Positions 3,938 to 42,606 of a DNA stretch of 64,000 nt are shown one piece after another. How positions within the stretch are numbered: position 1 is the first letter of the stretch; every line of letters starts with the position of its first letter. The position numbers were made by a program, and so were the translations under genes. Source of the stretch: Myxococcales bacterium. GTDB lineage: Bacteria; Myxococcota_A; Polyangia; Polyangiales; Polyangiaceae. A model generated the notes under the pieces. The model ran no database searches and was not told the DNA's origin. It saw only the letters and a program-made list of their open reading frames with translations. Where the stretch lies: assembly GCA_947473045.1 (NCBI GenBank), contig CANJCO010000003.1:62001-126000 (forward strand), in the 5' to 3' direction.

Positions 3938-4309
3938 CGTCGCGCGCGCATACGCCCGTGCGAGGTGCTCGAGGGCGGCCGACGCCGAAACTGCGAGATC
4001 GGCCAGGGCCTCGTGACCGACACGCTCGAGCACGAGCCAGTCGCGTGCGATCACGTCGTAGAAGCCGCGGTGACGCAGCAGCCGGAGCGTCGCGCCCGAC
4101 GGCAGCGAGAGGCCTTCGAGCGGCAGCGGCACGTCGGTCGCGAGCGGCTTGCCGAAGCGTTCCATCACCGCCACCAGCGCTTCGAGGGGCACGTCGCCGA
4201 TTTGTGCATCTTGCACGTAAATGCCGATGAGATCGCCGGTCACGCGCACGGTTACGGGCGCGAGCACTCCGTCAGCCAGCGTTCGCTCAGCGATTTGAAG
4301 CGCGTTCAC
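3932..4309 (-). CDS. Conserved-looking protein coupled to Fe-S membrane protein
   Basis: The start is taken as the GTG at 4309, which overlaps the TGA of the upstream gene as GTGA (4306-4309) and predicts translational coupling; the product is 125 residues. It begins 'VNALQIAERTLADGVLAPVTVRV' and contains a patterned alpha/beta region with 'GDLIGIYVQDAQIGDVPLEALVAVMERFG', then a basic/hydrophobic C-terminal helix rich in Ala and Leu. There is no signal peptide, membrane helix or metal motif. The obligate pairing with the Fe-S protein at 4306-4755 suggests a shared role, perhaps as a soluble partner or assembly factor. I do not recognise the family. Confidence 0.6.
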   Translation of the reverse strand: MNALQIAERTLADGVLAPVTVRVTGDLIGIYVQDAQIGDVPLEALVAVMERFGKPLATDVPLPLEGLSLPSGATLRLLRHRGFYDVIARDWLVLERVGHEALADLAVSASAALEHLARAYARATP

Positions 4310-4755
4310 GACGCGCGCTGGGCGCCATCGTCGCGCAGCTCGCTCGCTTTGGTGAGCACGAACAGCTTGACCTTGCGCATCGGAACGCGCGCCGGACACC
4401 GCGCTTCGAGCTCAGCGAGGCGGTCGTCGCCCACGGCCTCGAACGAGCGTGCGGCGGCGTCGTAGTCGGGCATGCTCCGCGAGCTGGCGAGCATGAGGTC
4501 CATCACGCCGCCGTAGGCGCCGCCGCTGCGCGCGATTCGCGCTCCCTCGCCGTCGTCGCACAGGCCGCACGCGATGCAGCCCGACAAACTCGCGAGGTCC
4601 TCGCGCTCGGCCGCGCCAACTGCAGGCAGCCTGTCTTTGGCATAACTGGCCCGGAAAGCGGCCAGGCCGCGCCGCGTGCCCATGATTGGAGCAACGAGCG
4701 TTCGGAGCAGCGCCCAGGCGAGAATCAGCAGCGCGTGAATTCGACCCACGGTCAT
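4306..4755 (-). CDS. Small membrane-anchored protein with a [4Fe-4S]-type Cys motif
   Basis: The product is 149 residues with an ATG start. Residues 5-25 form one N-terminal membrane helix (IHALLILAWALLRTLVAPI). A soluble domain follows with Cys60, Cys63 and Cys66 in 'CIACGLC' and a distant Cys120 followed by Pro ('ARCPARVP'). The C-x2-C-x2-C...C-P pattern is the classic ligand set for a single [4Fe-4S] cluster, as in the ferredoxin half of succinate dehydrogenase/fumarate reductase B subunits. The long 53-residue gap to the fourth Cys is atypical. It is translationally coupled to the downstream gene at 3932-4309. It is divergent from the Spy-like gene at 4850, with a 94-base shared promoter region. 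It may be an electron carrier or redox sensor at the membrane; the role is inferred only from the motif. Confidence 0.65.
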   Translation of the reverse strand: MTVGRIHALLILAWALLRTLVAPIMGTRRGLAAFRASYAKDRLPAVGAAEREDLASLSGCIACGLCDDGEGARIARSGGAYGGVMDLMLASSRSMPDYDAAARSFEAVGDDRLAELEARCPARVPMRKVKLFVLTKASELRDDGAQRAS

Positions 4756-4849
4756 CCCTTTAACACTTCTTCACCGCCGCGGGCGCACGCTCTTAACAAT
4801 CGGGCTGCAGCTTCTTTCTTCGACGGCGCAGGCGAATCGTCTCCTGCCC

Positions 4850-5368
4850 ATGAAGAAAGAGATAACACTCATGATCGGTTGCATTATCGGAGCAGCTTGC
4901 GTGGTTGGGGCCTTCAAGATTGCGCGCATGGCTGCGCGGCGCATGCGCGGGGGCCGCGGGCGTCACGGCGGCGGATGCGGAGGTATGCGGAGCGAGGGCG
5001 GCTGGCGCGGTCGCCGCGGCGGAGGCGGGCAGCGCATGATGATGCGCATGCTCTTCGAGCGCCTCGAGACCTCACCGGGGCAGGAGAAAGCGATTAAGAG
5101 CGCTGTCGAACAGGTGTTCGAGTCGATGCGCGCTGCGAGGCACGAGTGGTCCGACGCGAGCGAGCTCGCCGTGCTGCTGACGGGCGAGACGTTCGACGCC
5201 ACGGCAGCCGAGGGAATCAGCGGCAAGGCCGACGCGAGCTTCGCGCGGGTGCGGGTGTCGATCGTCGAGTCCATGCGGCAGATTCACGAGGCGCTCGATG
5301 AACGTCAACGGAAGCTGCTGGCGGATTGGCTGCGAGACCTCGGGCACCGAAGCGCCCGCTGGTCGTGA
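4850..5368 (+). CDS. Spy/CpxP-like periplasmic sensor protein
   Basis: The 172-residue product opens with a membrane segment (residues 5-24, 'ITLMIGCIIGAACVVGAFKI') and then a striking Gly/Arg/Met/His-rich linker (about residues 27-66) with runs such as 'GRHGGGCGGM' and 'QRMMMRM'. The C-terminal half is all-helical and amphipathic: 'SPGQEKAIKSAVEQVFESM' and 'IHEALDERQRKLLADWL', the last matching the LTxxQ-type helix of Spy, CpxP and metal-resistance (CnrX-like) proteins. In that family the periplasmic helical hairpin senses misfolded protein or metals and tunes a two-component system. An OmpR-type regulator and a histidine kinase follow directly, which fits. The Met/Cys/His-rich linker could bind metal; this is inference. 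Confidence 0.72.
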   Translation: MKKEITLMIGCIIGAACVVGAFKIARMAARRMRGGRGRHGGGCGGMRSEGGWRGRRGGGGQRMMMRMLFERLETSPGQEKAIKSAVEQVFESMRAARHEWSDASELAVLLTGETFDATAAEGISGKADASFARVRVSIVESMRQIHEALDERQRKLLADWLRDLGHRSARWS

Positions 5369-5392
5369 ACGCGGAGGGCAGCGGCCGATGCG

Positions 5393-5408
5393 TGCATGTT
5401 GCATGCAA
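5393..5408. promoter_or_regulatory. TGCATG direct repeat and palindrome before response regulator
   Basis: TGCATG occurs at 5393-5398 and again at 5400-5405, and the second copy sits inside the perfect 10-bp palindrome TTGCATGCAA (5399-5408). The element lies 36-51 bases upstream of the regulator start at 5444, a usual place for an autoregulatory box. OmpR-type regulators bind direct repeats, but the 7-base period here is shorter than their usual 10-11. A weak CCCC/GGGG hairpin follows before the ribosome binding site. Confidence 0.3.
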
Positions 5409-5443
5409 GGCCGCGCCCCCCATTTCGGGGTAAGGTGAGGCCC

Positions 5444-6118
<675 letters not shown>

Positions 6119-6123
6119 TTCGC

Positions 6124-7200
6124 ATGAGCACCCGTTCCCGCGGCGCGGCATGCGCGATCGGAGAGCGCAGACGGGCACCGCCGCCCGAGGTCGTGCGCCG
6201 CTGGTACTTCCAGTGGCGGCTGCGTCGGCGCATCTTTGTGTGGCTCGCGCTCGCCATGCTCGCGAGCGGCGCCGTCGTCGCGATGGCCCTGCGCGCATCT
6301 GGGGCGCCCCACGAGTGGCGCCAGGCGATCGTTCCACTCATGGTCACCTTTGCGGCGCTGTGGGCCGCCGCCGGCGCGATCGCCTTCCGCCTGTCGCGCC
6401 CCTATGTCGAGCTCGAGCGCGTGGCGAAGGCGCTCGGACGCGGCGAGTCCGGTGCCCGCTTTTCGCTGACAGCCGCGAGCGGCGCCGAGTCGCGGATCAT
6501 TGGCGCCGCGATCAACGACATGGCCGATCGCCTCGGCGAACAGCTCACCGATCAGCGCGCGCTGCTCGCGGCTGTCTCGCACGAGCTCCGCACGCCGATG
6601 GCCCGAATGCGCCTGCTCATCGAGCTTGCGCGTGAGAGCGCCTCGCCGGGGCGCTCCCTCGATGAGCTCGACGCCGAGGTCGTTGAAATCGACCAGCTCG
6701 TTTCGCAGCTGCTTGCCGCGAGTCGTCTTGATTTTTCAGCGCTCACGGTGCGAAAGCACGACCTCGCGGATCTGGCCCGGCGCGCGATGGAGCGCGCACA
6801 AGTTCCGCTCGAAGCGCTAGAAATACGCGCTTTTTGTGAGATCGACGGCGATGCCACGTTGCTCGCGCTGGCGATGGGCAATCTCATCGCCAACGCGGTT
6901 GGTCACGGCGGCGGCGTGACCGCTGTGCGCGTCGGTGCTCGCCCGGGGGCGGCCTTCTTCGAGGTTGACGATGATGGCGCGGGGTTCGACGAAGCGCAGC
7001 TGCCACGGGTGTTCGAGCCCTTTCGCGAGGGTCGCGGCCGCGCACCCCGGCCACGCAAGTCGGGCATGGGTTTCGGTCTCGCGCTCGTTAGGCGCATCGC
7101 GGAGGCGCACCGGGGCGGCGCATATGCAGCCAATCGCGAAGGGGGCGGCGCCTGCGTCGGCTTCACGATCCCGACGCCGGACGGAGCAACGCAGGAGTAG
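6124..7200 (+). CDS. Sensor histidine kinase
   Basis: The product has 358 residues. Two membrane helices (about 36-57 and 68-90) bracket only a very short loop, so the kinase has almost no periplasmic sensor of its own and may rely on the upstream Spy-like protein. A HAMP linker follows (about 90-145). The dimerisation box has the phospho-accepting His153 in 'VSHELRTPMARMRLL'. The ATPase domain has an N box 'MGNLIANAVGHGGG', a G1 box 'VDDDGAGFDE' and a G2 box 'KSGMGFGLALVRRIAEAH'. All catalytic boxes look intact. It is co-transcribed with the response regulator (5-base gap), and the RlpA-like gene follows after 10 bases, linking the system to the cell wall. Confidence 0.92.
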   Translation: MSTRSRGAACAIGERRRAPPPEVVRRWYFQWRLRRRIFVWLALAMLASGAVVAMALRASGAPHEWRQAIVPLMVTFAALWAAAGAIAFRLSRPYVELERVAKALGRGESGARFSLTAASGAESRIIGAAINDMADRLGEQLTDQRALLAAVSHELRTPMARMRLLIELARESASPGRSLDELDAEVVEIDQLVSQLLAASRLDFSALTVRKHDLADLARRAMERAQVPLEALEIRAFCEIDGDATLLALAMGNLIANAVGHGGGVTAVRVGARPGAAFFEVDDDGAGFDEAQLPRVFEPFREGRGRAPRPRKSGMGFGLALVRRIAEAHRGGAYAANREGGGACVGFTIPTPDGATQE

Positions 7201-23487: not shown

Positions 23488-23586
23488 GCGCTGCTGCCCG
23501 GTTGCCGGCGGCGCGTTCGTTGGCCGCGGCAGGGTGCCTGCCTGAACCAAACGCGAAACTTGTCCGAGACCGCTGTGGCGGGGTGT

Positions 23587-25524
23587 ATGATGAGCGCGCA
23601 GATGGCTGAATTTCTCGCCTCCGATGACCTGGTCGACGACGCACCGCAGCCGGAACTTCGCCGAGGCACGCGCCTCGGTCGCTATGAGCTGCTGGTGCCG
23701 ATCGCCAAAGGCGGAATGGCGCGCGTTTGGGCCGCGCGTCTGCAGGGCCAACGCGGCTTTTCCAAGATGGTCGCGGTCAAGACGATTCTGCCGCACCTCG
23801 CCGAAGAGCCTGAGTTCGAGCGCATGTTTCTCGACGAGGCGCGAATCGCGTCGGGCGTCCATCACCCCAACGTCTGCGAAATCTACGAGCTCGGCGAGGA
23901 GGGAAAGATCCTCTATCTCGCCATGGAATGGGTCAACGGCGAGTCGCTCGTCACCATCCTTCGGGGGGGCTCAAGCCCCACGATCGGTCCCGGAAACGGG
24001 CAGCCGAAGGTCGAGCCGATTCATCCGCACCTCGCGGCACGCATCGTCTCCGAGGCGGCATCCGGACTTCACGCGGCCCACAATCTGACCGACGACGATG
24101 GTCAGCCGCTTGGCGTCGTTCATCGCGACGTGTCGCCGCACAACATTCTCATCAGCGCAGACGGCAACGTGAAGGTCGCTGACTTTGGCGTCGCCAAGGC
24201 GATGGGGCAAATGACGGCCACGGCGGCGGGGCAAATCAAAGGGAAGATGGCCTACATGGCGCCGGAGCAGGTCGCCGGCGCCCGCGTCGATCGGCGCAGC
24301 GACGTGTTTTCGCTCGGCGTGGTGCTCTATGAAGCGACCACGGGCCGCAAGCCCTTCGAGGGGGATGGCGACGCGCAGGTGATGCACGCGATTCTCACGG
24401 GTAACTTCCAGCCGCCATCCAAGTTGATGCGCGGGTATCCGCCCGCGCTCGAGCAAATTATCGTGCGTGCGCTGTCGCACGAGGCTGCCCACCGTCACGC
24501 GACGGCCGAGCGTCTGCACCTTGCGCTTGAAGGCTTCATCGCCAAGAGCGGCTCGGTCGTCACCCCGTCGCACATCGCATCGGTCGTCACCGGGCGCGTG
24601 GGGCCGTTTCTCGAGCGACGCAAAGAGAAGATTCGCGCGGCGGCCCAGGCTCCGAGCGCCGAAGACATCAGCGCCAGCGGCGCGCACGTGGTGGCTTCGG
24701 GAGCGACGCCGTCGCTGCAAAGCGGAAGTGGCGTATCTCCGCACGCGCCGCACTCCCGGCAGCCATCGCTACCCGACGCCACGGGGCCCCAGTCGGCCGC
24801 TGCGCAGCTCACGGGAAGCGGAACGGCTCCGGCGGCCCGCATGCTCGCCCAGGCGCCCGCGAGTTCGTCGACCATGAAGTACCTGCTCGCGGCCTCAGCC
24901 GGAGTGGGCGTCGCGTGCGCGGTGGTCATGGGTGGCTTCGCGTTCTTCAGCAAGGGCAAAGTCGACGCCGCACCTGCCCCCTCGGCGAGCCCGTCTGTCG
25001 TGGTGGCGACGGCGCCCATCGCAAGCGCCGCGCCCGCTGCGACGGCGGCTCCGCTGGTGCGGCCTCCGATCGCATTTCGGGTCAACGTCAAAGAGGCGAT
25101 GCTCATCGTCGACGGCGTGGCCCAGGACGAGGTCGTGCGCACGCTCGACCGCCCGAAACCCGGCGCGAAGGTCTCGGTCTCGGTGCAGGCACCGGGCTAC
25201 GGCGATCAAACGGTCGTTCTCGACGAGAACTCCCCGACCGTGATCGACGTGAATTTACCGCAGCAGCCTTCGTCGCCGACTCCCACGCCGACGCCGACGC
25301 CCAATGGTGCTGCTTCGCCGGCCCGCGCCTCCGGCCCGGCTCCGACAGCGCTCCCAGCGAATCCGTTCGCGACGCCGATCGCAAAGCCGCCGCCGGTCGT
25401 CGTCCCCCCTCCGCCGCCGGTCGTCGTGGCGCCTCCGCCAAAGCCCCCTGCCGTTCCCCCAAAGAGCACAGTCACCGCGCCGCCCAAGCCCGGTGCCCTG
25501 CCTCCGAACCCTTTTGGTCCCTGA
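23587..25524 (+). CDS. Transmembrane Ser/Thr protein kinase with PEGA-like tail
   Basis: The ATG at 23587 gives 645 residues; tandem and nearby ATGs (23590, 23602) and a TTG at 23560 are alternatives. The Hanks kinase domain (about 31-320) is intact: Gly loop 'IAKGGMARVW', Lys65, 'EWVNGESLVTIL' hinge, His179-Arg180-Asp181 in 'VVHRDVSPHNIL', Asp199-Phe-Gly, and 'MAYMAPEQVAG'. A membrane helix (about 430-455) separates it from an outer part containing a PEGA-like beta domain (about 495-565) and a Pro/Thr/Val-rich tail. The TPR/PEGA protein gene follows after 6 bases and a lipoprotein after that, so the kinase probably signals in response to envelope partners. Substrates are not evident. Confidence 0.92.
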   Translation: MMSAQMAEFLASDDLVDDAPQPELRRGTRLGRYELLVPIAKGGMARVWAARLQGQRGFSKMVAVKTILPHLAEEPEFERMFLDEARIASGVHHPNVCEIYELGEEGKILYLAMEWVNGESLVTILRGGSSPTIGPGNGQPKVEPIHPHLAARIVSEAASGLHAAHNLTDDDGQPLGVVHRDVSPHNILISADGNVKVADFGVAKAMGQMTATAAGQIKGKMAYMAPEQVAGARVDRRSDVFSLGVVLYEATTGRKPFEGDGDAQVMHAILTGNFQPPSKLMRGYPPALEQIIVRALSHEAAHRHATAERLHLALEGFIAKSGSVVTPSHIASVVTGRVGPFLERRKEKIRAAAQAPSAEDISASGAHVVASGATPSLQSGSGVSPHAPHSRQPSLPDATGPQSAAAQLTGSGTAPAARMLAQAPASSSTMKYLLAASAGVGVACAVVMGGFAFFSKGKVDAAPAPSASPSVVVATAPIASAAPAATAAPLVRPPIAFRVNVKEAMLIVDGVAQDEVVRTLDRPKPGAKVSVSVQAPGYGDQTVVLDENSPTVIDVNLPQQPSSPTPTPTPTPNGAASPARASGPAPTALPANPFATPIAKPPPVVVPPPPPVVVAPPPKPPAVPPKSTVTAPPKPGALPPNPFGP

Positions 25525-33164: not shown

Positions 33165-33199
33165 CAGATCGTTTTCAGGGGCCGCGCGTATGAACGCGG

Positions 33200-34264
33200 A
33201 TGGAACGCATCGGCGAATACGAGATCAAGCGACTGATCGGCGAAGGCGGCATGGGCCGCGTCTACGAGGCCGAGGAGCGCCTGTCCAAGCGACGGGTTGC
33301 GCTCAAGGTGCTGCGCCCGGAGCTTACGCGAAGCGAAGACGGCCGCAGGCTCTTCCAAAACGAGATGCAGATTCTCGCGCAGCTCGAGCATCCCGGGCTC
33401 GTACGCAGCCTCGCGGCGATCGAGCACGAGGGGCAGCTGGTAATGGTGCTTGAACACCTCGAAGGTCGCACCCTTCGGCAAACGCTCGCCGATCGGGGGC
33501 GGCTCGGGCTCACCGAAGCGGTAGAATTGACGGCGCAGATCGCGCTCGCCCTCGGCGCGGCGCACACGCAATCGCCACCGATCGTGCACCGCGACCTCAA
33601 GCCCGAAAACGTGATGATCGGCCCCGATGGCGCCGCCAAAGTCATGGATTTCGGAGTCGCAAAGGTGCTTGCCGGCGCGCGCGCAACTTCGACGCAGAGC
33701 GTCGGCACGCTTCAATACATGAGCCCCGAACAGCTCGACGCGGGCGAGCTTGACGCGCGGAGCGATCTTTATGCGCTAGGCCTCGTGCTGTACGAAATGC
33801 TCGAAGGCGCACCGCCGTTTGCGTCGGCGTCGCCCCGCGAGCTGCTCAACTTGCAGTGCACTGCGGCCCCTCCCGCGCTGACTTGCGAGCTTCCGAGCGG
33901 CATCGAGACGTTGCTGCTGGCGTTGCTCGCGAAGGCTCCTGCGGACCGTCCCGAGAGCGCTGCGGCCGTTGTTTCGGCCTTGTCGCCGTTTCGGGTGTCG
34001 TCGCCGCGCACCGGGGCCGCGCGCGTGGTTTCGCCGACCCCTGCAGTCGAAGCGTCAAAACCGGCCGCGCCGTCGCGCGCCGCAGGCAAGCTCGACACGC
34101 TCGCGCTTGTGGCTCCGTCGCGGCGCGGCGCCGAAGTGTCGACGCGCGCTGCGCTGGCGTGTGTGGTGGTTCTGTCGCTGCTCGCGGGAGCGATGACCTA
34201 CGAGGCGCGCCTGACATCGAGCCGCGCGTCGCAGTCGGTCCCGCCCGCATCCGCTGGGAGGTAA
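33200..34264 (+). CDS. Ser/Thr protein kinase heading the redox operon
   Basis: The product has 354 residues and an ATG start. The catalytic domain (7-270) looks active: Gly loop 'IGEGGMGRVYEAEE', Lys36 in 'RVALKVL', Glu in 'QNEMQILAQLEHPGLV', His130-Arg-Asp132 in 'VHRDLKPENVMI', Asp150 in 'MDFGVAK', and 'TLQYMSPEQLDAG'. A linker rich in Pro/Ala/Ser precedes one membrane helix (about 316-333) and a very short outer tail of about 20 residues, so a large ligand-binding part is missing. It is the first gene of a four-gene set with 1-base spacing to a pseudokinase-cytochrome gene, whose kinase-like lobe could be its partner or substrate. Reads as an active Hanks kinase; the signal it senses is unknown. 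Confidence 0.92.
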   Translation: MERIGEYEIKRLIGEGGMGRVYEAEERLSKRRVALKVLRPELTRSEDGRRLFQNEMQILAQLEHPGLVRSLAAIEHEGQLVMVLEHLEGRTLRQTLADRGRLGLTEAVELTAQIALALGAAHTQSPPIVHRDLKPENVMIGPDGAAKVMDFGVAKVLAGARATSTQSVGTLQYMSPEQLDAGELDARSDLYALGLVLYEMLEGAPPFASASPRELLNLQCTAAPPALTCELPSGIETLLLALLAKAPADRPESAAAVVSALSPFRVSSPRTGAARVVSPTPAVEASKPAAPSRAAGKLDTLALVAPSRRGAEVSTRAALACVVVLSLLAGAMTYEARLTSSRASQSVPPASAGR

Positions 34265-34265
34265 C

Positions 34266-37031
34266 GTGAACCGCGAGCTCGCCGACGCGCTCTGCGCGGC
34301 GTCCCGTCGCGGGCTCTTCGCGGTCGGCCCGGCCGTTGCCCGCGGAGACGACGGCTTCGACGTCGTCGGCAGCGATCGCGGCAGGAGCCTCGCCGACTGG
34401 TCTCGCGGCGAGCGGCTGCACTGGCGCAAGGCGCTGCGGATCACGCGAAAACTGGCCGTCGCACTTGAAGAGCTCGAGGCGCGTGGCTGGCCTGCGGCTC
34501 CGCTCTCGCCCGGCGATGTGCGGCTGGAGCCCTCGGTGGCGCTCCTCGCCACGCGCACCCTGCGCCTGCTCACGGGCGGCCCGCCGAACGATGCTCCCGC
34601 TGCGCTTCGTTGGTCGGCGCCCGAGGTGCTCGAAGGGCAACCGTGGGACGCGGCCGCGAGCCGGTATTTCCTTGGTCTCGTGGCCTACCGCCTCATCGCC
34701 GGCGATCTGCCTTCGCGCGCGGGCGGCCTGCGGGCCGAGCTCTCGTCGCGCGCCGAATTTGGTGTCGCGCCCTTCGTTGAAGCGGTTGCGCGAGAGCTGG
34801 CTCCGGGGGTCGAGACCGCGATCCTTTCGTGGGTTGGTGCGGCCGCCGCGCGCCCAGCGACGGCGGGCGATTTCGTGTCCGCGTGCGATCGGCTCCTGCG
34901 CGGCGAGCCCAGCGCCGACGTCCCGGAGACCCGTTCGTCTCCGCCGCGTTCGTTCGCGCCGCGCGCGCCCGCGACTGCGCCGAAGGCTCGATGGGTGGCA
35001 GCGGCTGCGCCGCTCGTATTTGCGGCTTTCACGGCCGCCAGCGCGCTGCTGTGGCCGCGTGAATCGCCACGGTCGCAATACGTGCAAGATGCACGCGCTG
35101 AGATCGATGCCACGTCGCCGGAGTCGTGCGCGCCCTGTCACGCACGCGAAGTCGTGGAGTGGCGCCGGAGCGTGATGTCGCAGGCGAGCTCGAGCCCGCT
35201 GTTTGGCGCACTTGAGAGCGTGGTCGAAGAGCAGGTCGGCAAAGACGACGCGTGCCCCAACGGCGCAGGGGCCCTGCGCGTGGCGGAGACGAACGCCTGC
35301 ATCGATTCGAAGACCGGCGTCAGCAAGACCGGCAGCGGCGGCGAGCAGTGGTGCGTCAATTGTCACGCGCCCGGCGCCAACGTCGTGAGCCGTCGCGCCG
35401 GCTGGAACGCGTTTGGTGACGCGCGCAGCCGCGCTCCCCTCCGCGATGTTCTACCGCAAGTCGCGCTGCAAGGCGTTTCGTGCGTTTCCTGCCACCGAAT
35501 TTCGGGCCCCGTTGCATCGCATGGCGCCGACCGAGGCGCCTACGAAGGCAACGCGACGTGGACGAGCAGCGCGACCGGCATCGCGTATCTGTCGCGGCCT
35601 GAAGACGGCGAAGGCCTGCGCGGGATCGCCAACAGCGGCTACCGGCTCAGCGGCGCGCTGCTGGCTCCCGCCACGCCGACGTTCGCACGCCTCGCGCCTC
35701 ACTCCGAACCTCCCGCTTCGGCGCGCGCCTACTTGCGGTCGAGCGAGTTTTGCGGCGCCTGTCACGACGTGCGCCTCTTCGGCACCGACGCGCTCGGGCA
35801 AGCGCAAGGCGAGCACTTCAAGCGCCTTCGCAACGCTTACTCCGAGTGGCGAACGTGGTCGGAGGGCGAGGCCCGGCGAGGTCGCACCGCGGCGAGCTGC
35901 CAGGGGTGCCACATGAGCCGATATCCTGGCGTCTGCGTGCCGGCGACCGGCAACGTGGCGGCCGACCCGGACTGCCCGCCGGGAACGCGCTTCGAATCGA
36001 GGCCTCCGAGCGACGCGCGCGAAGCCCGCACGCACTACTTCACGAGCGTCGATCTGCCGCTCGCTCCCGACTACCCGGGCGCGTTCGTGAGCGACCGAAC
36101 GCTCGATGCGTTCGGCACGCCGCTGGGACTCCGAGCACGTCGAAATATTCTTTTGAAGAGAACTTTCCGCTTCGGACTCGGAGAGGTGCTGCGCGAGGGC
36201 TCGCGCCTGTCGATTCCGGTCGAGCTCGAGAACGTCGGGGCAGGGCATCGCGTTCCCGCAGGTTTCAGCCAGGAGCGCGAGATTTGGGTCGAACTGCGCG
36301 TGACCGACGCGCGCGGGGCGACGGTTTACGAGGTCGGCGTGGTGGCGCGAGACGACGAGGACCTGCACGACAAATCGTTTGAAACGATCAACGTAGACGA
36401 CGCTGAGCGCGACGAAAGCGGCCGGCCGCTTGGCGTTTTTGGCGCCGACGTTCGCGACGGCGTCGATGCTCCGCGATGGTTGCCGGACGGCGCGTCGGTC
36501 GATGCGTTTCGCGGCAACGGTCTGGTCAATTTGCAGAACGGGTTCTTGCGCTGCGTGCGCTGCATCGGCAGCGTCGATGCAAGCGGCGCATGCATGGCCA
36601 CGGCGGGGCAGGACCGACTGCGCGCGGGCCGCTTCGCCGACGGCGACTACGACCTCGACACGGGCGCGTGCCGCTCGAATCTATCGGGCGAGCGCGCGCT
36701 TCTTGAGACGTACTTCCCCGTGGGATCGCTCGACGCGCGGCGAGGAATCGCCAAGGCGCCCGACGCCATCATCGACACGCGCTCGGCGCCGCCCGGCGCT
36801 CCGCGAACCTACCGCTACGAGCTCGACACGGGCGCGCATCCAGGCCCCTTGAAGGTCACCGCACGGCTGCGCTTTCGCGCATTTCCGCCCTATTTGGTGC
36901 GAGCTTTCGCCGATTACGAGGCGCTGTCGAACGCGCGCGGACTGCGCCCCGGCGGCCCTCAAGTCGCGCGCTCCATGCTCGCACGCGTCGACATCGTAGA
37001 CCTCGCGTCAGCCGAGGCGAGCGTTCGATGA
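34266..37031 (+). CDS. Pseudokinase fused to a five-CxxCH multihaem cytochrome c
   Basis: The product has 921 residues and a GTG start with GGGAGG upstream. Residues 20-210 resemble the C-lobe of a Hanks kinase: 'LSPGDVRLEPSVALLATRTL' aligns where HRD and the loop should be and 'WSAPEVLEGQPWDAAASRYFLGL' where APE and the next helix should be, but HRD, DFG and the Gly loop are gone, so it is a pseudokinase. A membrane helix (243-263) follows. The outer domain carries haem motifs at 288-292 (CAPCH), 363-367 (CVNCH), 406-410 (CVSCH), 496-500 (CGACH) and 545-549 (CQGCH). Then comes a beta-rich region with 'GAGHRVPAGF' (His661), typical of multihaem c proteins. ATGA overlap with the next gene. The order suggests a kinase-linked electron carrier; this is inference. 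Confidence 0.85.
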   Translation: MNRELADALCAASRRGLFAVGPAVARGDDGFDVVGSDRGRSLADWSRGERLHWRKALRITRKLAVALEELEARGWPAAPLSPGDVRLEPSVALLATRTLRLLTGGPPNDAPAALRWSAPEVLEGQPWDAAASRYFLGLVAYRLIAGDLPSRAGGLRAELSSRAEFGVAPFVEAVARELAPGVETAILSWVGAAAARPATAGDFVSACDRLLRGEPSADVPETRSSPPRSFAPRAPATAPKARWVAAAAPLVFAAFTAASALLWPRESPRSQYVQDARAEIDATSPESCAPCHAREVVEWRRSVMSQASSSPLFGALESVVEEQVGKDDACPNGAGALRVAETNACIDSKTGVSKTGSGGEQWCVNCHAPGANVVSRRAGWNAFGDARSRAPLRDVLPQVALQGVSCVSCHRISGPVASHGADRGAYEGNATWTSSATGIAYLSRPEDGEGLRGIANSGYRLSGALLAPATPTFARLAPHSEPPASARAYLRSSEFCGACHDVRLFGTDALGQAQGEHFKRLRNAYSEWRTWSEGEARRGRTAASCQGCHMSRYPGVCVPATGNVAADPDCPPGTRFESRPPSDAREARTHYFTSVDLPLAPDYPGAFVSDRTLDAFGTPLGLRARRNILLKRTFRFGLGEVLREGSRLSIPVELENVGAGHRVPAGFSQEREIWVELRVTDARGATVYEVGVVARDDEDLHDKSFETINVDDAERDESGRPLGVFGADVRDGVDAPRWLPDGASVDAFRGNGLVNLQNGFLRCVRCIGSVDASGACMATAGQDRLRAGRFADGDYDLDTGACRSNLSGERALLETYFPVGSLDARRGIAKAPDAIIDTRSAPPGAPRTYRYELDTGAHPGPLKVTARLRFRAFPPYLVRAFADYEALSNARGLRPGGPQVARSMLARVDIVDLASAEASVR

Positions 37032-39085
37032 CGGCTACAATCAACCCGTGGCCGGTCGCCATCTTCGGGGTCTCGCTCCTGCGCGATCTCGACGCGCGCG
37101 CGCGCCGCGAGATTGCGGCGGCGGGCTCCATCTCGCGCTTCGCTGCGGGGCAATACGTGTATCGCGCAAGCGATGCCTCGGACGCGCTCTTCGTCGTCGT
37201 CGACGGCGAGGTCGAAGTGCGCGACGAGGGCGGCCTGGTCGTCAATCGCGCCCGATCGCTCGACGTGCTCGGGCACGACGCCATTGTTCGCGTTTCAAGC
37301 CGCCGCAGACGCTCGGCGGTGTGCGTGACTGCGGCCACCATCGCGCGCGTTCCGGCCGACGTTCTGGCCCGCGGCCTCGGCAGACTGGGCATCTCGGTCG
37401 CGAGCGATCCGCGCTGGTCCGCCATCGGTCGCGCCGCGATCGCCGACGCGATTCGCTCCGCACCTTTCGCCGGGCGCCTGTCATCGTTCGACCTCGGCGC
37501 ACTCACGGGAGCTTCGCAAATCGTTACGGTCGCGCGGGGCCGGGCGGTGTACCGGTCGGGTGAGCCTGCGACGCACGCATACTTCGTCGCCGAGGGAGCC
37601 GTGAGCCCGGGCGAGGGCGAATACGTCGGCTCTGGAGCCCTGTTCGGGCACGAGCTGGCGCTCGCTCGCAAGGCGCGCGCGAGCGACGCGACGGCGCTCA
37701 GCTCGACCTGGTTGCTCTCGATTCCGCGCGACGTGATCGAAAGCGTCGCCCTGCGAAATACAGGCGTGTTTTCAGCCGCCGTCGAGCCGAAAATGCGCGA
37801 GCCACGAAACGCCCATCGACTGCAGACCGCGCGATCGCTGCTGGTCATCGATCAAGACGCGTGCGTGCGCTGCGGGCACTGCGTGTCGAGCTGCGCGTCG
37901 GCCCACGACGACGGGCTGCCGCGATTCACGCGTCTGGGAGACGTCGTCATGCTGCCGCTCGGCGCGGCTTCGACCCCCGCGCTGCTGGCTTCGAGTTGCC
38001 ATCACTGTGAGCGGGCGGCGTGCGTTGCAGAGTGTCCGACCGGCGCAATTGAGCGCCAGCCCGGCGGCGAGGTGACGATTCGTGAAGACCTTTGCACCGG
38101 CTGCGGCGCGTGCGTGAAGGCGTGCGCGTGGGGCAATGTCTCGCTCGTCACGAAGGCGGCGCGTGTGGTCGCTAGCAAGTGCGATCTGTGTGCTACTCGC
38201 GCGGCGGGCCCTGCGTGCGTCGCCGCGTGCCCGGTTGGAGCGGCCTCCCGCATCGATCCGTCGCAGCTCTCCGAAGCGCGCGAGCGTCACGCTCACGAGG
38301 TCGCGGCGGCCGCATCAGCCAGCAAAGACCGCGCCGTCGTGGTGGCCACGCTGCTTGGCTCGCTCGCGACGTTTGCATCGCTCACGCAGGCCTCTGCGCG
38401 CGCGTCGGGGGCCGCGCTTGCCGCCTCGTCAGTGGTCGCCGCGAGCTATGTCGCCGTGAAGCGAGCCCGGCTCTGCTTCGCACTAAAACCTGCGTATCGT
38501 CTGCATTTGGTGATGGGCGCCGTGACGCTGGCGGCTGCCGCCGGTCACCTGCGACCGAGGCTCGCCCCCGGGCTCAATGGCGCGCTCGCGATCGCTGTCG
38601 CGGGCACGCTCGTCACCGGCGCCGCGGGCTGGGCAGCGTTCGCCACCATTCCGCGAGCCCTCACGAGAATTGAACCTGACGTGGCCACAGGTGACGACGA
38701 TGCAGAGCGCAGCGTCATTGCGCGCAGTTTGCTGGCCGCGCTCACCGGCCAGAGCCTGGCGCTCAAGACCTGCTTTCGCGACGGGCTGCATCGGTACGCG
38801 GTCGCCCCGCTCGGGTGGCTCGCGCTTGTGCTGTCGCGTCGCACGATCGCGCAGGAAAGAGCGCGCATCCACGCGGCTGCGGTGGCGTCGCCCGGCGACA
38901 TCGCAGGCGCCGCACAGGGGCCCCTGACCGAGCTCGTGCGGCACAGCGTTTCACTCCGCGCGATGCCGGCGCGCAGGGCGCTCGGAGGGCTGCTCTCGGC
39001 GTGGTTGCCCGTCCACGTCGCCTTCGCCGTCGCCTGCTCCCTGCTCGCGCTGCTTCACGTCATCACCGAGCTCGTCTACCGGTGA
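37028..39085 (+). CDS. CRP-like x2, 4x[4Fe-4S] and di-haem cytochrome b membrane protein
   Basis: The product has 685 residues; its ATG overlaps the previous stop. Two CRP-like beta-barrels (about 18-115 and 145-245) carry 'FVVVDGEVEVRD' and 'YFVAEGAVSPGEGEYVGSGALFGHELALA'; neither has the full FGE...R-x-A cyclic-nucleotide cassette, so ligand binding is doubtful. A DmsB/NrfC-type ferredoxin region (279-412) has four Cys sets: CVRCGHCVSSC (279-289), CHHCERAACVAECP (324-), CTGCGACVKAC (356-) and CDLCATRAAGPACVAACP (385-), fitting four [4Fe-4S] clusters. The membrane part (about 436-685) has H-x13-H twice, at His493/His507 and His663/His677, the ligand pattern of a di-haem cytochrome b. It should pass electrons through the membrane; acceptor and donor unknown. 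GTGA overlap with the next gene. Confidence 0.83.
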   Translation: MTATINPWPVAIFGVSLLRDLDARARREIAAAGSISRFAAGQYVYRASDASDALFVVVDGEVEVRDEGGLVVNRARSLDVLGHDAIVRVSSRRRRSAVCVTAATIARVPADVLARGLGRLGISVASDPRWSAIGRAAIADAIRSAPFAGRLSSFDLGALTGASQIVTVARGRAVYRSGEPATHAYFVAEGAVSPGEGEYVGSGALFGHELALARKARASDATALSSTWLLSIPRDVIESVALRNTGVFSAAVEPKMREPRNAHRLQTARSLLVIDQDACVRCGHCVSSCASAHDDGLPRFTRLGDVVMLPLGAASTPALLASSCHHCERAACVAECPTGAIERQPGGEVTIREDLCTGCGACVKACAWGNVSLVTKAARVVASKCDLCATRAAGPACVAACPVGAASRIDPSQLSEARERHAHEVAAAASASKDRAVVVATLLGSLATFASLTQASARASGAALAASSVVAASYVAVKRARLCFALKPAYRLHLVMGAVTLAAAAGHLRPRLAPGLNGALAIAVAGTLVTGAAGWAAFATIPRALTRIEPDVATGDDDAERSVIARSLLAALTGQSLALKTCFRDGLHRYAVAPLGWLALVLSRRTIAQERARIHAAAVASPGDIAGAAQGPLTELVRHSVSLRAMPARRALGGLLSAWLPVHVAFAVACSLLALLHVITELVYR

Positions 39086-41046
39086 AGTCGCGCCTCACGC
39101 CTTCGGCGAACCGGGATTTGGCTCGCTTCGGCGACTTGCTGAGCGTGGGCGGGGGCGCAGCGCTTGGCCTGCTCGCGCTCGCGGCGTGGACGCGCCCGGG
39201 GCTGAGCGATCTCGCGCCCGGTCCTCTGTCCGCTGCGCACGTGGCGGCGGGGGTCGGCTGCTCGAGTTGCCACGGAGGGGCGCGGCCTTCGTCGGGCGCC
39301 TGCCAAGGGTGTCACGGGGGCGCGGCCGAGCGTTCTTCGACTCGGACCGGGCACCGGGCTGCGATGGCGCAAGGGCAGCTTTTGTGCGCGGATTGCCACT
39401 CCGCGCATGGCGGATCCGAGAGCGTGACGTTCGCGGGCGACGGTCTTTTTACGCGCAGCGGCGACGGGGCGTCGCGCACGTCAACGCTGCCACACGCTTC
39501 GCCGCCCGGCGCCGTACCGCTCGTGCCGGCCAGCGTGTGCGTGCGTTGCCATTCGTTTTCTGCGGCAACCGATCCAGCGCTGCGGTGCGTGTCGGACCCG
39601 CGGGGCGATCTCACGAAACAGGCTGATTTGTGCATGGATGAGCACCTGACCGTGGACTCCCTCCGCGGCGCGCGCAGGCTCGCCGTGTGGGAGTCGGCCC
39701 GCGCAGTCGCCCGGAGCACCGCTTGGACGGAAGTGCCGGCTCGCGGCGCCGCAACGGCGTGGGCACTCCTGCCCCTCGGCTCGGCGGCGCTGTCGCTCGC
39801 GCTCGTGCGCGTGGCTCGCAAACGTCGTGAGCGCGCGGCGCGTTCAGCGGCGCCCGTCGCTCCAGCCGCGCTCGACAAAAGGCGGCTCCCGCAGATCGAC
39901 CCGTCGCGATGCCTTGGCTGTTACGCCTGCGTCGACGCTTGTCCGTTCGCCGTTCTCGAAGTGCAGCGCTTCGTCGCCGTAGTCGCGCGCCCCGCGGATT
40001 GCTGCGGCGTCGTCGCTTGCGCCGAAGTGTGCCCCAACGGATCGCTGTCGATCACGGGCGAGCCGCTCGCCGCGCGTCAGCTGCGCCTGGGCGCCGGGAG
40101 CCTCGAGAGCCTCGACGCTCCCGGCGTCTTCGTGGCGGGCGACGTGACTGGCGTGCCTCTCATACGCAACGCGATTGAGCACGGCGAGCGCGTCATTCGC
40201 GCGATCGCGACTGCGCGCTCGGCGTCGAGCGGCGACGCGCTCGATGTGCTTATCGTCGGCGCCGGCCCCGCCGGACTGTCGGCGGCGCTCAGCGCAAAGC
40301 GGGCGGGCCTGTCGTTCGAGATCCTCGAGCAGTCCACGGTCGCCTCCAGCGTGCGCAGCTTCCCCCGCAGCAAAATCGTGCTCGATCATCGCGAAGGAGA
40401 CGTTGCCAACTCCGCCCTGTGGGTCGGAGAGACGACCAAAGAGCTGCTCCTGCTCGAATGGCAGCGCGCGCTTCGAACCGAAGGCGTCGCGGTGCGCGAA
40501 GGTTTTCGTGTCGCCAATATCAGCAAAAAAGGCTCTTTTTTTGAGATCGAAGTCGCGAATCGTGAGCCCCCGGAGGCTACGTTCCTGGCGCGCAACGTGG
40601 TGCTGGCCACGGGACGCCGGGGAACGCCGCGGCGTCTGGGAGCCCACGTCGCGGACGGGTGCGACAACAAGGTGAGCTACAGCCTCGCCGACGCGCGCAG
40701 CTTCGCAGGGCAGCGCGTACTCGTCGTGGGGCTGGGCGACGCCGCCATGGAAGCGGCGCTGGCGCTCGCCCAACAGCCGAACACCGTCGTGACGGTGTGT
40801 CACCGGGGCGACGACTTCTCGCGCGGAAAGCCGCGAAATATCGAGTCGATGCGCGCGGCGCTCGCAGCGGGCCGAATCCTCGCGATGTTTTCGAGCGAGG
40901 TCGTTGAAATAAGCCGCCGCGACGTCACCCTGCGATCGGCTGGCATCGACCGGACGCTCGGCAACGACGCGGTGCTCGTGCTCATCGGCGGCGAGCCTGA
41001 GGGCGCGCTGCTCAAGCTCGCCGGCGTGCGATTCGAAAACGAATAG
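39082..41046 (+). CDS. Tetrahaem c, 2x[4Fe-4S] and permuted flavoprotein fusion
   Basis: The GTG at 39082 overlaps the previous stop; the product is 654 residues. A membrane helix (19-36) leads to a domain with CxxCH at 60-64, 74-78, 102-106 and 153-157; a second helix (about 222-242) followed by KRRERAAR returns the chain to the cytoplasm. There a ferredoxin pair has CLGCYACVDACP (277-288) and CCGVVACAEVCP (307-318). The segment 'GVFVAGDVTGVPLIRNAIEHG' (about 345-370), normally at the C-terminus of thioredoxin-reductase-like flavoproteins, comes before the FAD motif GAGPAG (393-398) and the NAD(P) motif GLGDAA (550-555), so the fold looks circularly permuted. This protein could carry electrons from cytoplasmic NAD(P)H to outer haems. 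Confidence 0.83.
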   Translation: MKSRLTPSANRDLARFGDLLSVGGGAALGLLALAAWTRPGLSDLAPGPLSAAHVAAGVGCSSCHGGARPSSGACQGCHGGAAERSSTRTGHRAAMAQGQLLCADCHSAHGGSESVTFAGDGLFTRSGDGASRTSTLPHASPPGAVPLVPASVCVRCHSFSAATDPALRCVSDPRGDLTKQADLCMDEHLTVDSLRGARRLAVWESARAVARSTAWTEVPARGAATAWALLPLGSAALSLALVRVARKRRERAARSAAPVAPAALDKRRLPQIDPSRCLGCYACVDACPFAVLEVQRFVAVVARPADCCGVVACAEVCPNGSLSITGEPLAARQLRLGAGSLESLDAPGVFVAGDVTGVPLIRNAIEHGERVIRAIATARSASSGDALDVLIVGAGPAGLSAALSAKRAGLSFEILEQSTVASSVRSFPRSKIVLDHREGDVANSALWVGETTKELLLLEWQRALRTEGVAVREGFRVANISKKGSFFEIEVANREPPEATFLARNVVLATGRRGTPRRLGAHVADGCDNKVSYSLADARSFAGQRVLVVGLGDAAMEAALALAQQPNTVVTVCHRGDDFSRGKPRNIESMRAALAAGRILAMFSSEVVEISRRDVTLRSAGIDRTLGNDAVLVLIGGEPEGALLKLAGVRFENE

Positions 41047-41079
41047 ATCGTTTCGCATGGCCGCCCGTATTGGGCGTCT

Positions 41080-42606
41080 ATGAGGCTAATTACTGCTGGT
41101 CTTCTCGCCGTCGTCGGGATGGGTACTTCGGTTGCGGGGGCGTTCGCGCTGCCGGTCGCCGCGCCGAGCGCGCAGCTCGTTGAGCTACCGGGGGTGGCGG
41201 AGGCAATCGCGGCGGCGGAGATCGACCGGTCGCGCTTTACCGACGGTCGCGCGCTCATGATCGACGCCCGGCTCGGTCACGCGAGCCTCGCTCAGGACTC
41301 CGCCGGCGAGACCTACCTGTTTGCATCGCTCACCGGCGGCGAGTCGAGCCAGGGCACGCCTCCGCTGAGCCTCGCGATCGCGATCGACCGATCCGGCTCC
41401 ATGAAGGGCGATCGCCTCGCCAACGCCCTCGCTGCCGCAGTGGGCACCGTCGAGCGCATGCGCGACGGCGACAGCGTGAGCGTGATCGCGTTCGACACGC
41501 GCGCGGTAGCCGTCGTCTCGCAGGAGCTGATCAGCTCGGCGTCGAAGCCCAGGATCGCAGCCCAAATAAGGTCGATCGGGCTCGGCGGTGACACGTGCAT
41601 TTCGTGCGGCCTGGACCGCGCGCTCAGCGAGCTCGCCACGTCGGGAACGCGCGACCACGTCAGTCGCATTTTGCTGTTGTCCGACGGCGCCACCAACCAC
41701 GGCATCACCGACATGGCGGGCATGCGGGCGCTGTCGGCACGCGTGCGCGACGCCGGCGTGTCTATTTCGACGATCGGAGTCGACGTCGACTTCGACGAAA
41801 AAATGATGGCGGCGATCGCCCAGGAGTCGACGGGACGGCACTATTTCGTAGCGAGCCCGGCGGGCCTTCCGGCCATTTTTGCGCAGGAATTCGACTCGCT
41901 GCTGTCGTCCGTGGCGCAGGACGCTGAGCTGCACGTAGACTTGGCGCCAGGCGTCGAGATCGATCAGGTGTTTGATCGAAGCTTTCGTCGCGAAGGCTCG
42001 TCGTCGGTCGTGGTCCCCTTTGGCAGCTTCGGCGCGAAGCAGGAGAAGACGATTCTCATCAAGCTACGCGTTCCCACCGGCGCCCGCGTATCCGCGCCCG
42101 TCGCTACGATGCGGGTCGATTATCGCGATCTGCGCAGCCGGGCCGACGCTCATTGCGGCGGCGTGCTCGCGGCCCGCGTCGTCGATCCGGCGCTCGCGCA
42201 GCAGCAGATCGATCCGTTCGTAGCGACGCGCCTCGAGCGAAGCCGAACGTCGCAGACGCTGACCGACGCCAATCGCCTCTTTGAAACGGGGCGCCTCACC
42301 GAAGCGCGGCAACGCCTCGGCGAGCAGAAGCACGAGATCGAGCAGAGTCTCGCCCTCGCGAAAAAGTCGCTGGCGACGGCCGCGCCGATGGCGACGGGCC
42401 GCGCGGGCATCGATGAGGCGTTCAGCGGGCAGCTCGCCGCGATCGAGGCAGCCCGGTCAGCGTTCGCCGCGACCCCTCCGGCCGACCTCGATCGCGCATC
42501 CGGCGGCGGGTTCGCGCCACCACCGGCCGCGGCGTCGCCCGCGTCGCGCGCCGGAAAGGCTCAAATCAAGGCCAACCAGCAGGCAGCGGGCGATCTCGCG
42601 TTCTGA
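41080..42606 (+). CDS. Secreted VWA-domain protein with intact MIDAS motif
   Basis: The product has 508 residues. The signal peptide is 'MRLITAGLLAVVGMGTSVAGAFA'. The VWA domain (about 95-285) has the MIDAS set: 'AIDRSGSMKGDRL' (DxSxS), Thr in 'LGGDTCISCGL' and Asp in 'LLLSDGATNHG'. It is followed by a beta-sandwich ('AELHVDLAPGVEIDQV') and a helical C-terminus with heptad-like repeats and a Pro/Ala-rich tail. Such proteins bind metal-coordinated partners in the periplasm. It starts 33 bases after the redox operon, with a small hairpin (CGCCC/GGGCG, 41062-41076) in the leader and a poor ribosome site, so co-transcription is uncertain. A role in chaperoning or organising the redox proteins is possible but not shown. 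Confidence 0.82.
   Translation: MRLITAGLLAVVGMGTSVAGAFALPVAAPSAQLVELPGVAEAIAAAEIDRSRFTDGRALMIDARLGHASLAQDSAGETYLFASLTGGESSQGTPPLSLAIAIDRSGSMKGDRLANALAAAVGTVERMRDGDSVSVIAFDTRAVAVVSQELISSASKPRIAAQIRSIGLGGDTCISCGLDRALSELATSGTRDHVSRILLLSDGATNHGITDMAGMRALSARVRDAGVSISTIGVDVDFDEKMMAAIAQESTGRHYFVASPAGLPAIFAQEFDSLLSSVAQDAELHVDLAPGVEIDQVFDRSFRREGSSSVVVPFGSFGAKQEKTILIKLRVPTGARVSAPVATMRVDYRDLRSRADAHCGGVLAARVVDPALAQQQIDPFVATRLERSRTSQTLTDANRLFETGRLTEARQRLGEQKHEIEQSLALAKKSLATAAPMATGRAGIDEAFSGQLAAIEAARSAFAATPPADLDRASGGGFAPPPAAASPASRAGKAQIKANQQAAGDLAF

Follow-up and report, generated by a model that had tools for sequence, protein, structure and literature searches.

A kinase-linked multihaem redox locus of Polyangia as a candidate inner-membrane electron conduit

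What might be the function of four tightly coupled genes that set a Ser/Thr kinase beside haem, iron–sulfur and flavin proteins? The genes lie in a 64,000-nucleotide stretch of DNA (the window) from a Myxococcales bacterium of the family Polyangiaceae (assembly GCA_947473045.1, contig CANJCO010000003.1, positions 62,001 to 126,000 of the forward strand) and encode the kinase K1; C2, in which a pseudokinase is joined through a transmembrane (TM) helix to a pentahaem cytochrome; F3, in which two cyclic-nucleotide-binding (CNB) domains precede a four-cluster [4Fe-4S] domain and a putative di-haem b membrane part; and O4, which combines a tetrahaem cytochrome, two ferredoxin-type clusters and an FAD/NAD(P)H domain. 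We lean towards the interpretation that the locus specifies an inner-membrane redox complex in which electrons would pass from NAD(P)H to haem c, tuned by K1, the pseudokinase and the CNB pair; the path, its direction, complex formation and phosphorylation control are what we infer from the features described here. Specifically, cytosolic NAD(P)H would reduce the FAD of O4, and electrons would then move through the two clusters of O4 to the four [4Fe-4S] clusters of F3 and on to its two b haems, from which they would cross the membrane to the O4 tetrahaem and the C2 pentahaem in the periplasm and reach a periplasmic or outer acceptor. The membrane kinase K1 and its dead copy on C2 would form a kinase/pseudokinase pair at the cytosolic face that, with the CNB pair of F3, may adjust assembly or electron flow. 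Transmembrane electron transfer by the locus is likely, and phosphorylation control of electron flow is plausible. That conduit rate or assembly is set by the locus's own Ser/Thr kinase via the C2 pseudokinase and the F3 CNB pair, which resembles that of PKA regulatory subunits, amounting to direct phosphorylation control throughout a bacterial subclass, is a possibility that we put forward tentatively. Because cultured Polyangia are mostly aerobes, we do not assume classic metal respiration.

The coordinates of open reading frames together with Pfam and NCBIfam matches reproduced the four gene boundaries of the original prediction, with a 1-base gap between K1 and C2, an ATGA overlap between C2 and F3 and a GTGA overlap between F3 and O4, as well as its cofactor motifs; the extent given there, 33200-41046, holds for the four genes and left out a linked fifth gene, which encodes an exported VWA-domain protein. 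With F3 as query, full-length relatives turned up in ~20 genomes from the same family, and in their flanking DNA the order is K1-C2-F3-O4-VWA, often with a NUDIX gene ahead. A scan of named genomes based on C2 yielded 55 Polyangia loci, including Polyangium, Sorangium, Minicystis, Labilithrix-like metagenome-assembled genomes (MAGs), Plesiocystis, Enhygromyxa, Paraliomyxa and one Kofleriaceae MAG; the three carrier taxa that were looked up are Polyangia of three different orders. Counting linkage only where the flank suffices, K1 adjoins C2 in 39 of 41 loci and F3 adjoins C2 in 38 of 39, O4 lies within 10 kb of C2 in 31 of 35, and the VWA gene is present in 19 of 27. The original prediction would have to be given up if the four genes were never linked in other genomes, and by these counts they are linked in most. 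In Nannocystaceae, K1 and VWA are inverted with adjacency kept; intact five-haem C2 genes are present in Minicystis and one Enhygromyxa, and in Sorangium the genes separating C2 from F3 are unrelated and on the opposite strand. Linkage over 55 loci rules out chance clustering or a host-specific oddity and, because cofactor motifs and ligands are kept across orthologues, the gene set is not due to chance. Pairwise distance-matrix correlations among the locus proteins are high, as expected from shared descent, and were given no weight.

O4, which is single copy in the genome, would be the point of electron entry. Pfam recognises c3-type haems, ferredoxin clusters and Pyr_redox in it; four CxxCH motifs are present in 21 of 22 orthologues, the exception having a trimmed start, and the distal non-motif His residues 53, 91, 109 and 188 are invariant. 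Genes for cytochrome c assembly (haem c maturation) are present in the genome. The flavodomain has a two-dinucleotide-binding-domain flavoprotein fold of the thioredoxin reductase (TrxR)/YpdA type, with YpdA 7a76/7a7b as the best solved match (for 7a7b, Z 21.2 and root-mean-square deviation (rmsd) 6.4 over 256 aligned residues). The GD segment with which TrxR-like folds close (VPGLYLAGDLTGLPLIKNAI) precedes the GxGPAG Rossmann motif in all O4 orthologues covering the region. With this segment moved to the end of the flavodomain, the YpdA profile scored 138 bits and covered positions 1-315 of 316, compared with 127 bits and positions 1-263 in the native order; the best PDB match likewise rose, reaching 97.2 instead of 88.7 bits. 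Pfam Pyr_redox_3 reaches only position 276 in O4 and in the relative L153_1, whereas it spans 2-305 of 305 in L152_2, a relative that, like L158_2, has the canonical order. Judged by this displacement, the O4 flavodomain is circularly permuted. O4 scores far below the cut-off for a YpdA bacillithiol disulfide reductase (TIGR04018, 124.9 versus 339.9 bits), and residues 384-654 contain no thioredoxin reductase CxxC; the fused two-cluster ferredoxin would fit a TrxR-type ferredoxin:NADP+ reductase.

F3 could carry electrons from O4 into the membrane. Pfam and NCBIfam assign it two cNMP-binding domains and four [4Fe-4S] clusters. Its Cys and His ligands (16 Cys, H493-x13-H507 and H663-x13-H677) are invariant in orthologues, and its Fe–S part matches beta subunits of the HycB/FdnH/DmsB type. 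The membrane part, which includes a long loop with SGKS, has no solved homologue by profile at E up to 10, and its two H-x13-H helices point to a di-haem b type. The original prediction had labelled the N-terminal part CRP-like. Profile comparison with solved structures replaces this label with a tandem CNB pair of the PKA-regulatory-subunit type: PKG and PKA regulatory subunits make up the best solved matches, the exception being one very long multidomain chain, and PKA RI-alpha is matched at 6e-27. Because the CNB pair has these matches and is joined to Fe–S and TM parts, F3 as a CRP-like regulator was ruled out. In the first CNB, the phosphate-binding Arg93 is invariant and Glu83/84 is retained across the family. 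Helix positions and positive-inside flanks place the flavin and Fe–S parts inside and haem c outside, an arrangement that was predicted originally and that agrees with the exported lipoprotein versions of the pentahaem protein.

Relatives that do without the kinase are informative about the redox core. A profile of the F3 haem b domain identified distant relatives in other Myxococcota, where the modules occur without the Polyangia kinase. In one (L152:3306-6326), a single chain has the order FHA-flavodomain-CNB-CNB-4x[4Fe-4S] and is encoded next to a haem b gene and cytochromes of 8 to 10 haems; the similar L158 set has a chain (4300-6747) with a canonical-order TrxR-type flavodomain, CNB-CNB and 4x[4Fe-4S] beside haem b and multihaem genes. 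Elsewhere, haem b and permuted flavo-ferredoxin genes adjoin cytochromes of 27 haems (L155) and 36 haems (L156). Next to a full F3, L153_1 is a 7-haem/Fe–S/permuted flavoprotein bearing three or four FHA domains. In the Bacteroidota, the Emticicia plasmid NC_018749.1 (L184, 6995-14055) has consecutive genes for haem b, permuted flavo-ferredoxin, a 23-haem and a 40-haem cytochrome, with ccsA directly ahead, and is a candidate electron-export cluster. Because these kinase-free relatives keep the haem b and flavo-ferredoxin core beside 8- to 40-haem cytochromes, transmembrane electron transfer is favoured, and the originally proposed chain from flavin through Fe–S and haem b to haem c becomes likely, the same modules being fused or adjacent in the relatives.

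The same observations bear on a different explanation, which we consider unlikely, namely that the locus is a redox sensor and no conduit, in which the haem and Fe–S centres would inform K1, via the pseudokinase, of the redox state of the envelope or quinone pool, with phosphorylation of other targets as output. In this case, the presence of a haem domain and a pseudokinase in one chain through a single TM helix would be readily understood, as would the conservation of K1 and the CNB pair, and myxobacteria have very many kinases (PMC2887360). However, ~18 cofactors and a complete NAD(P)H path far exceed the needs of a sensor, and the redox core beside large cytochromes is retained in the relatives that have no kinase.

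We turn to the part of C2 that would receive electrons in the periplasm. Its exported part has CxxCH motifs at residues 288, 363, 406, 496 and 545 and additional invariant His residues 479, 590 and 661, and ends in a beta domain with GHRVPAGF; all five CxxCH motifs are present in the 19 of 19 C2 orthologues checked. In the orthologue L047, C2 starts with a lipoprotein-type signal in place of the pseudokinase; four relatives from outside the class start with such a signal too, and because of these signals we consider the haem part to be exported. With the C2 model, the first-ranked Foldseek match is the T. tepidum pentahaem cytochrome c552 (5ze8; E 4.6e-8, TM-score 0.25/0.51, rmsd 13.2, for a model of low predicted local distance difference test (pLDDT) values), and four collinear stretches of that chain are also matched by the C2 profile (E 0.005, each weak alone). 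Based on model and profile, the pentahaem domain probably belongs to the PHC-type cytochromes. Assignment to an MtrC/MtrF domain (Pfam 1e-5, below the cut-off) was dropped because 5ze8 fits the chain better.

T. tepidum c552, the nearest solved pentahaem protein, has a low potential and a suggested role in sulfur metabolism, and the parts of the locus are reversible; both would suit electron uptake, in which an outside donor would deliver electrons to the periplasmic haems and the chain would run inward to quinone or NAD(P)+. We find this improbable because the locus is without a donor oxidase, and because reduction of NADP+ would require low-potential donors or an input of energy. To the possibility that F3 and O4 form an NAD(P)H:quinone reductase acting at the haem b site, and that the c-type haems work in a different, periplasmic reduction, we assign a chance slightly smaller still. 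The four-cluster domain of F3 does resemble FdnH and DmsB, and in formate dehydrogenase-N the haem b subunit that partners FdnH reduces menaquinone; however, tetrahaem and flavin share one O4 chain in the orthologues checked and the relatives adjoin multihaem cytochromes.

How, then, might the kinase be connected to the conduit that we favour? The kinase domain of K1 (Pfam Pkinase, 8.1e-51) has intact catalytic residues, with VALK, HRDLKPEN and DFG conserved in 19 sequences, and is followed by one TM helix at the C-terminal end (residues 313-331). K1 falls short of the NCBIfam NF033483 cut-off for a PASTA-type PknB/Stk1, reaching 260 of 450 bits with the kinase part only. A second Ser/Thr kinase with a TM helix is encoded in the window at 23560-25524. 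By profile, the N-terminus of C2 matches PDB kinases (S. aureus Stk1, 5e-20), and its model compares with the PknB fold at Z 19.8 and rmsd 4.9 over 198 aligned residues, in a structural comparison whose match list was filled by the kinase part and was uninformative for the haem part. HRD and DFG are absent from C2 in every orthologue that has the domain. The pseudokinase–pentahaem fusion of the original prediction is thereby borne out. Because a pseudokinase profile scores 79-106 bits against full-length K1 orthologues, and at most 72 bits against one K1 fragment and every other kinase encoded in the loci, we regard the pseudokinase as a K1 duplicate; by these scores, it is derived from K1. 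Since FHA domains read phosphothreonine, their occurrence on redox relatives (L152_2 and L153_1) suggests that a link between phosphorylation and the redox core recurs outside Polyangia. Together, the adjacency of K1, the descent of the pseudokinase and the FHA domains speak indirectly for a link between the kinase and the redox proteins.

A promoter-like motif offers a further connection. It lies 34-35 bp 5' of the K1 and VWA start codons, and is enclosed in a 26-bp sequence, AGATCGTTTNNNNNGGCCGCNCGTAT, of which the window contains exactly two copies (33166-33191 and 41045-41070). AGATC[GC]/AGCAC variants with the exact 15-bp spacing were found upstream of 10 of 19 K1 and 7 of 15 VWA orthologues, where shuffling led us to expect 0.01, and in none of 66 upstream regions of C2, F3 and O4 genes; because the motif was derived from the sequences in which it is counted, it is this internal control that carries weight. 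The pattern by itself has 17 occurrences in the genome and so is non-specific alone. Its geometry resembles that of promoters of the extracytoplasmic function (ECF) type. We read K1-C2-F3-O4 as one putative transcription unit with which the VWA gene would be co-controlled. The AGATCGTTTNNNNNGGCCGCNCGTAT copies overlap small hairpins immediately ahead of the start codons, and between pth- and rpsF-like genes there is a third copy, which has 2 mismatches (G000:C8:17013). The VWA protein has the metal-ion-dependent adhesion site (MIDAS) DRSGS, and a near-invariant CISCG is found inside its VWA domain region. Outside Polyangia, a gene for a PHC-like five-haem lipoprotein lies beside a VWA gene (L160:1289-5070), a pairing that suggests that the VWA–pentahaem partnership is old. 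That K1 is an unrelated neighbour in the operon by accident is hardly credible: myxobacterial genomes are rich in such kinases, as the second one in the window illustrates, but K1 forms a single orthologous group that keeps its place beside C2 even in inverted arrangements, is the source of the pseudokinase and shares its upstream motif only with VWA.

Several observations weigh against a kinase-tuned conduit. O4 is 5-6 kb off in two loci, and in this species the first CNB has a changed Glu pair. The orthologue L047 keeps K1 and is without the pseudokinase, which therefore is not always needed. The pentahaem model is of low confidence (mean pLDDT 68, with the haem region mostly <50) and the PHC match is weak when taken piece by piece. 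Moreover, the annotated genes of the locus include no outer-membrane step (no barrel or porin and no outer-membrane cytochrome), a genome-wide search for barrels not having been made.

Features of the locus and their positions in the window
Feature	Position	Strand	Basis
K1, PknB-type Ser/Thr kinase (gene 1)	33200..34264	+	Pfam, motifs
C2, pseudokinase, TM helix and pentahaem cytochrome (gene 2)	34266..37031	+	
C2 pseudokinase domain, residues 1-215	34266..34910	+	PDB kinase matches, structure comparison
C2 TM helix, residues 244-262	34995..35051	+	
C2 exported part, residues 272-921	35079..37028	+	CxxCH, invariant His, PHC-like
F3, tandem CNB, 4x[4Fe-4S] and putative di-haem b membrane protein (gene 3)	37028..39085	+	
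F3 tandem CNB-type domains, residues ~15-242	37070..37753	+	
F3 four-cluster [4Fe-4S] domain, residues 272-407	37841..38248	+	16 invariant Cys
F3 cytochrome b domain, residues 436-685	38333..39082	+	~5 TM, two H-x13-H
O4, TM, tetrahaem c, TM, 2x ferredoxin cluster, circularly permuted TrxR/YpdA-type FAD/NAD(P)H domain (gene 4)	39082..41046	+	
O4 tetrahaem domain, residues 45-190, between two TM helices	39214..39651	+	CxxCH, CctA
O4 two ferredoxin-type clusters, residues 268-325	39883..40056	+	
O4 displaced C-terminal FAD-binding segment, residues 330-379, APGVFVAGDVTGVPLIRNAI	40069..40218	+	ahead of flavin core
O4 FAD/NAD(P) core, residues 384-654	40231..41043	+	Pyr_redox, YpdA
VWA gene, exported VWA-domain protein (fifth member)	41080..42606	+	linkage in orthologous loci
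Promoter-like motif AGATCG-N15-CGTA (25 bp), ahead of K1	33166..33190	+	
Second copy of promoter-like motif, ahead of VWA gene	41045..41069	+	

Taken singly, the parts of the locus are all of known kinds; the way they are combined, the conservation of this combination throughout the subclass and the permuted flavo-ferredoxin are undescribed as far as the literature searched shows. We found no published counterpart of the locus in that literature, in keeping with the originally stated novelty of a chain with its own kinase, pseudokinase and CRP-like domains, and most subscription papers lay outside the search, so that the absence of a report is no proof. If phosphorylation control holds, a new kind of system is reasonably possible, which would join Ser/Thr kinase signalling, much expanded in myxobacteria and with few known targets, to multihaem electron transfer, and in which the action of a kinase/pseudokinase pair on a redox complex can be tested. 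The carriers are soil and marine myxobacteria, which may thus tune electron flow by protein phosphorylation. The di-haem b protein and the circularly permuted ferredoxin-flavoprotein beside 8- to 40-haem cytochromes make up a widespread, apparently undescribed core, which, in more than one phylum, may be where electrons enter export systems from the cytoplasm.

Among known systems, the Geobacter ext/omc and Shewanella Mtr outer-membrane conduits have in common with this locus a multihaem path across the envelope, and the PHC-type ExtKL sits in one conduit cluster; unlike them, the locus is without a porin or outer-membrane cytochrome, and to our knowledge these conduits carry no kinase. In the electron-transfer subunits of formate dehydrogenase-N and DMSO reductase, as in F3, a di-haem b membrane part follows a 16-Cys four-cluster domain; F3 differs in being a single chain with a tandem CNB ahead of the clusters, and a molybdenum catalytic subunit is absent. 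With the PKA regulatory subunit and PKG, F3 shares two CNB domains in tandem; in contrast to these proteins, the pair has no identified inhibitor segment, is fused to Fe–S clusters and has altered nucleotide-binding residues in this species. The PHC family (T. tepidum c552 5ze8, Geobacter ExtKL/GSU2801 and cable-bacteria sPHC/lPHC) likewise has five CxxCH motifs followed by a beta-rich domain of the GHxxPxG type, and C2 differs in its fused pseudokinase and TM helix, its ~650-residue exported part and eight extra invariant Cys. For this family, which includes Geobacter ExtKL and cytochromes of cable bacteria, a connection with archaeal cytochrome nanowires has been suggested (PMC11976967), and the conduit cluster that includes ExtKL has an effect on metal reduction (PMC6148476). 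Finally, TrxR-type ferredoxin:NADP+ reductases and YpdA (Bdr) have FAD and NAD(P) Rossmann domains like those of O4, whose flavodomain is without CxxC; unlike them, O4 is, from its segment order, circularly permuted and brings its own two-cluster ferredoxin and a membrane-anchored tetrahaem domain.

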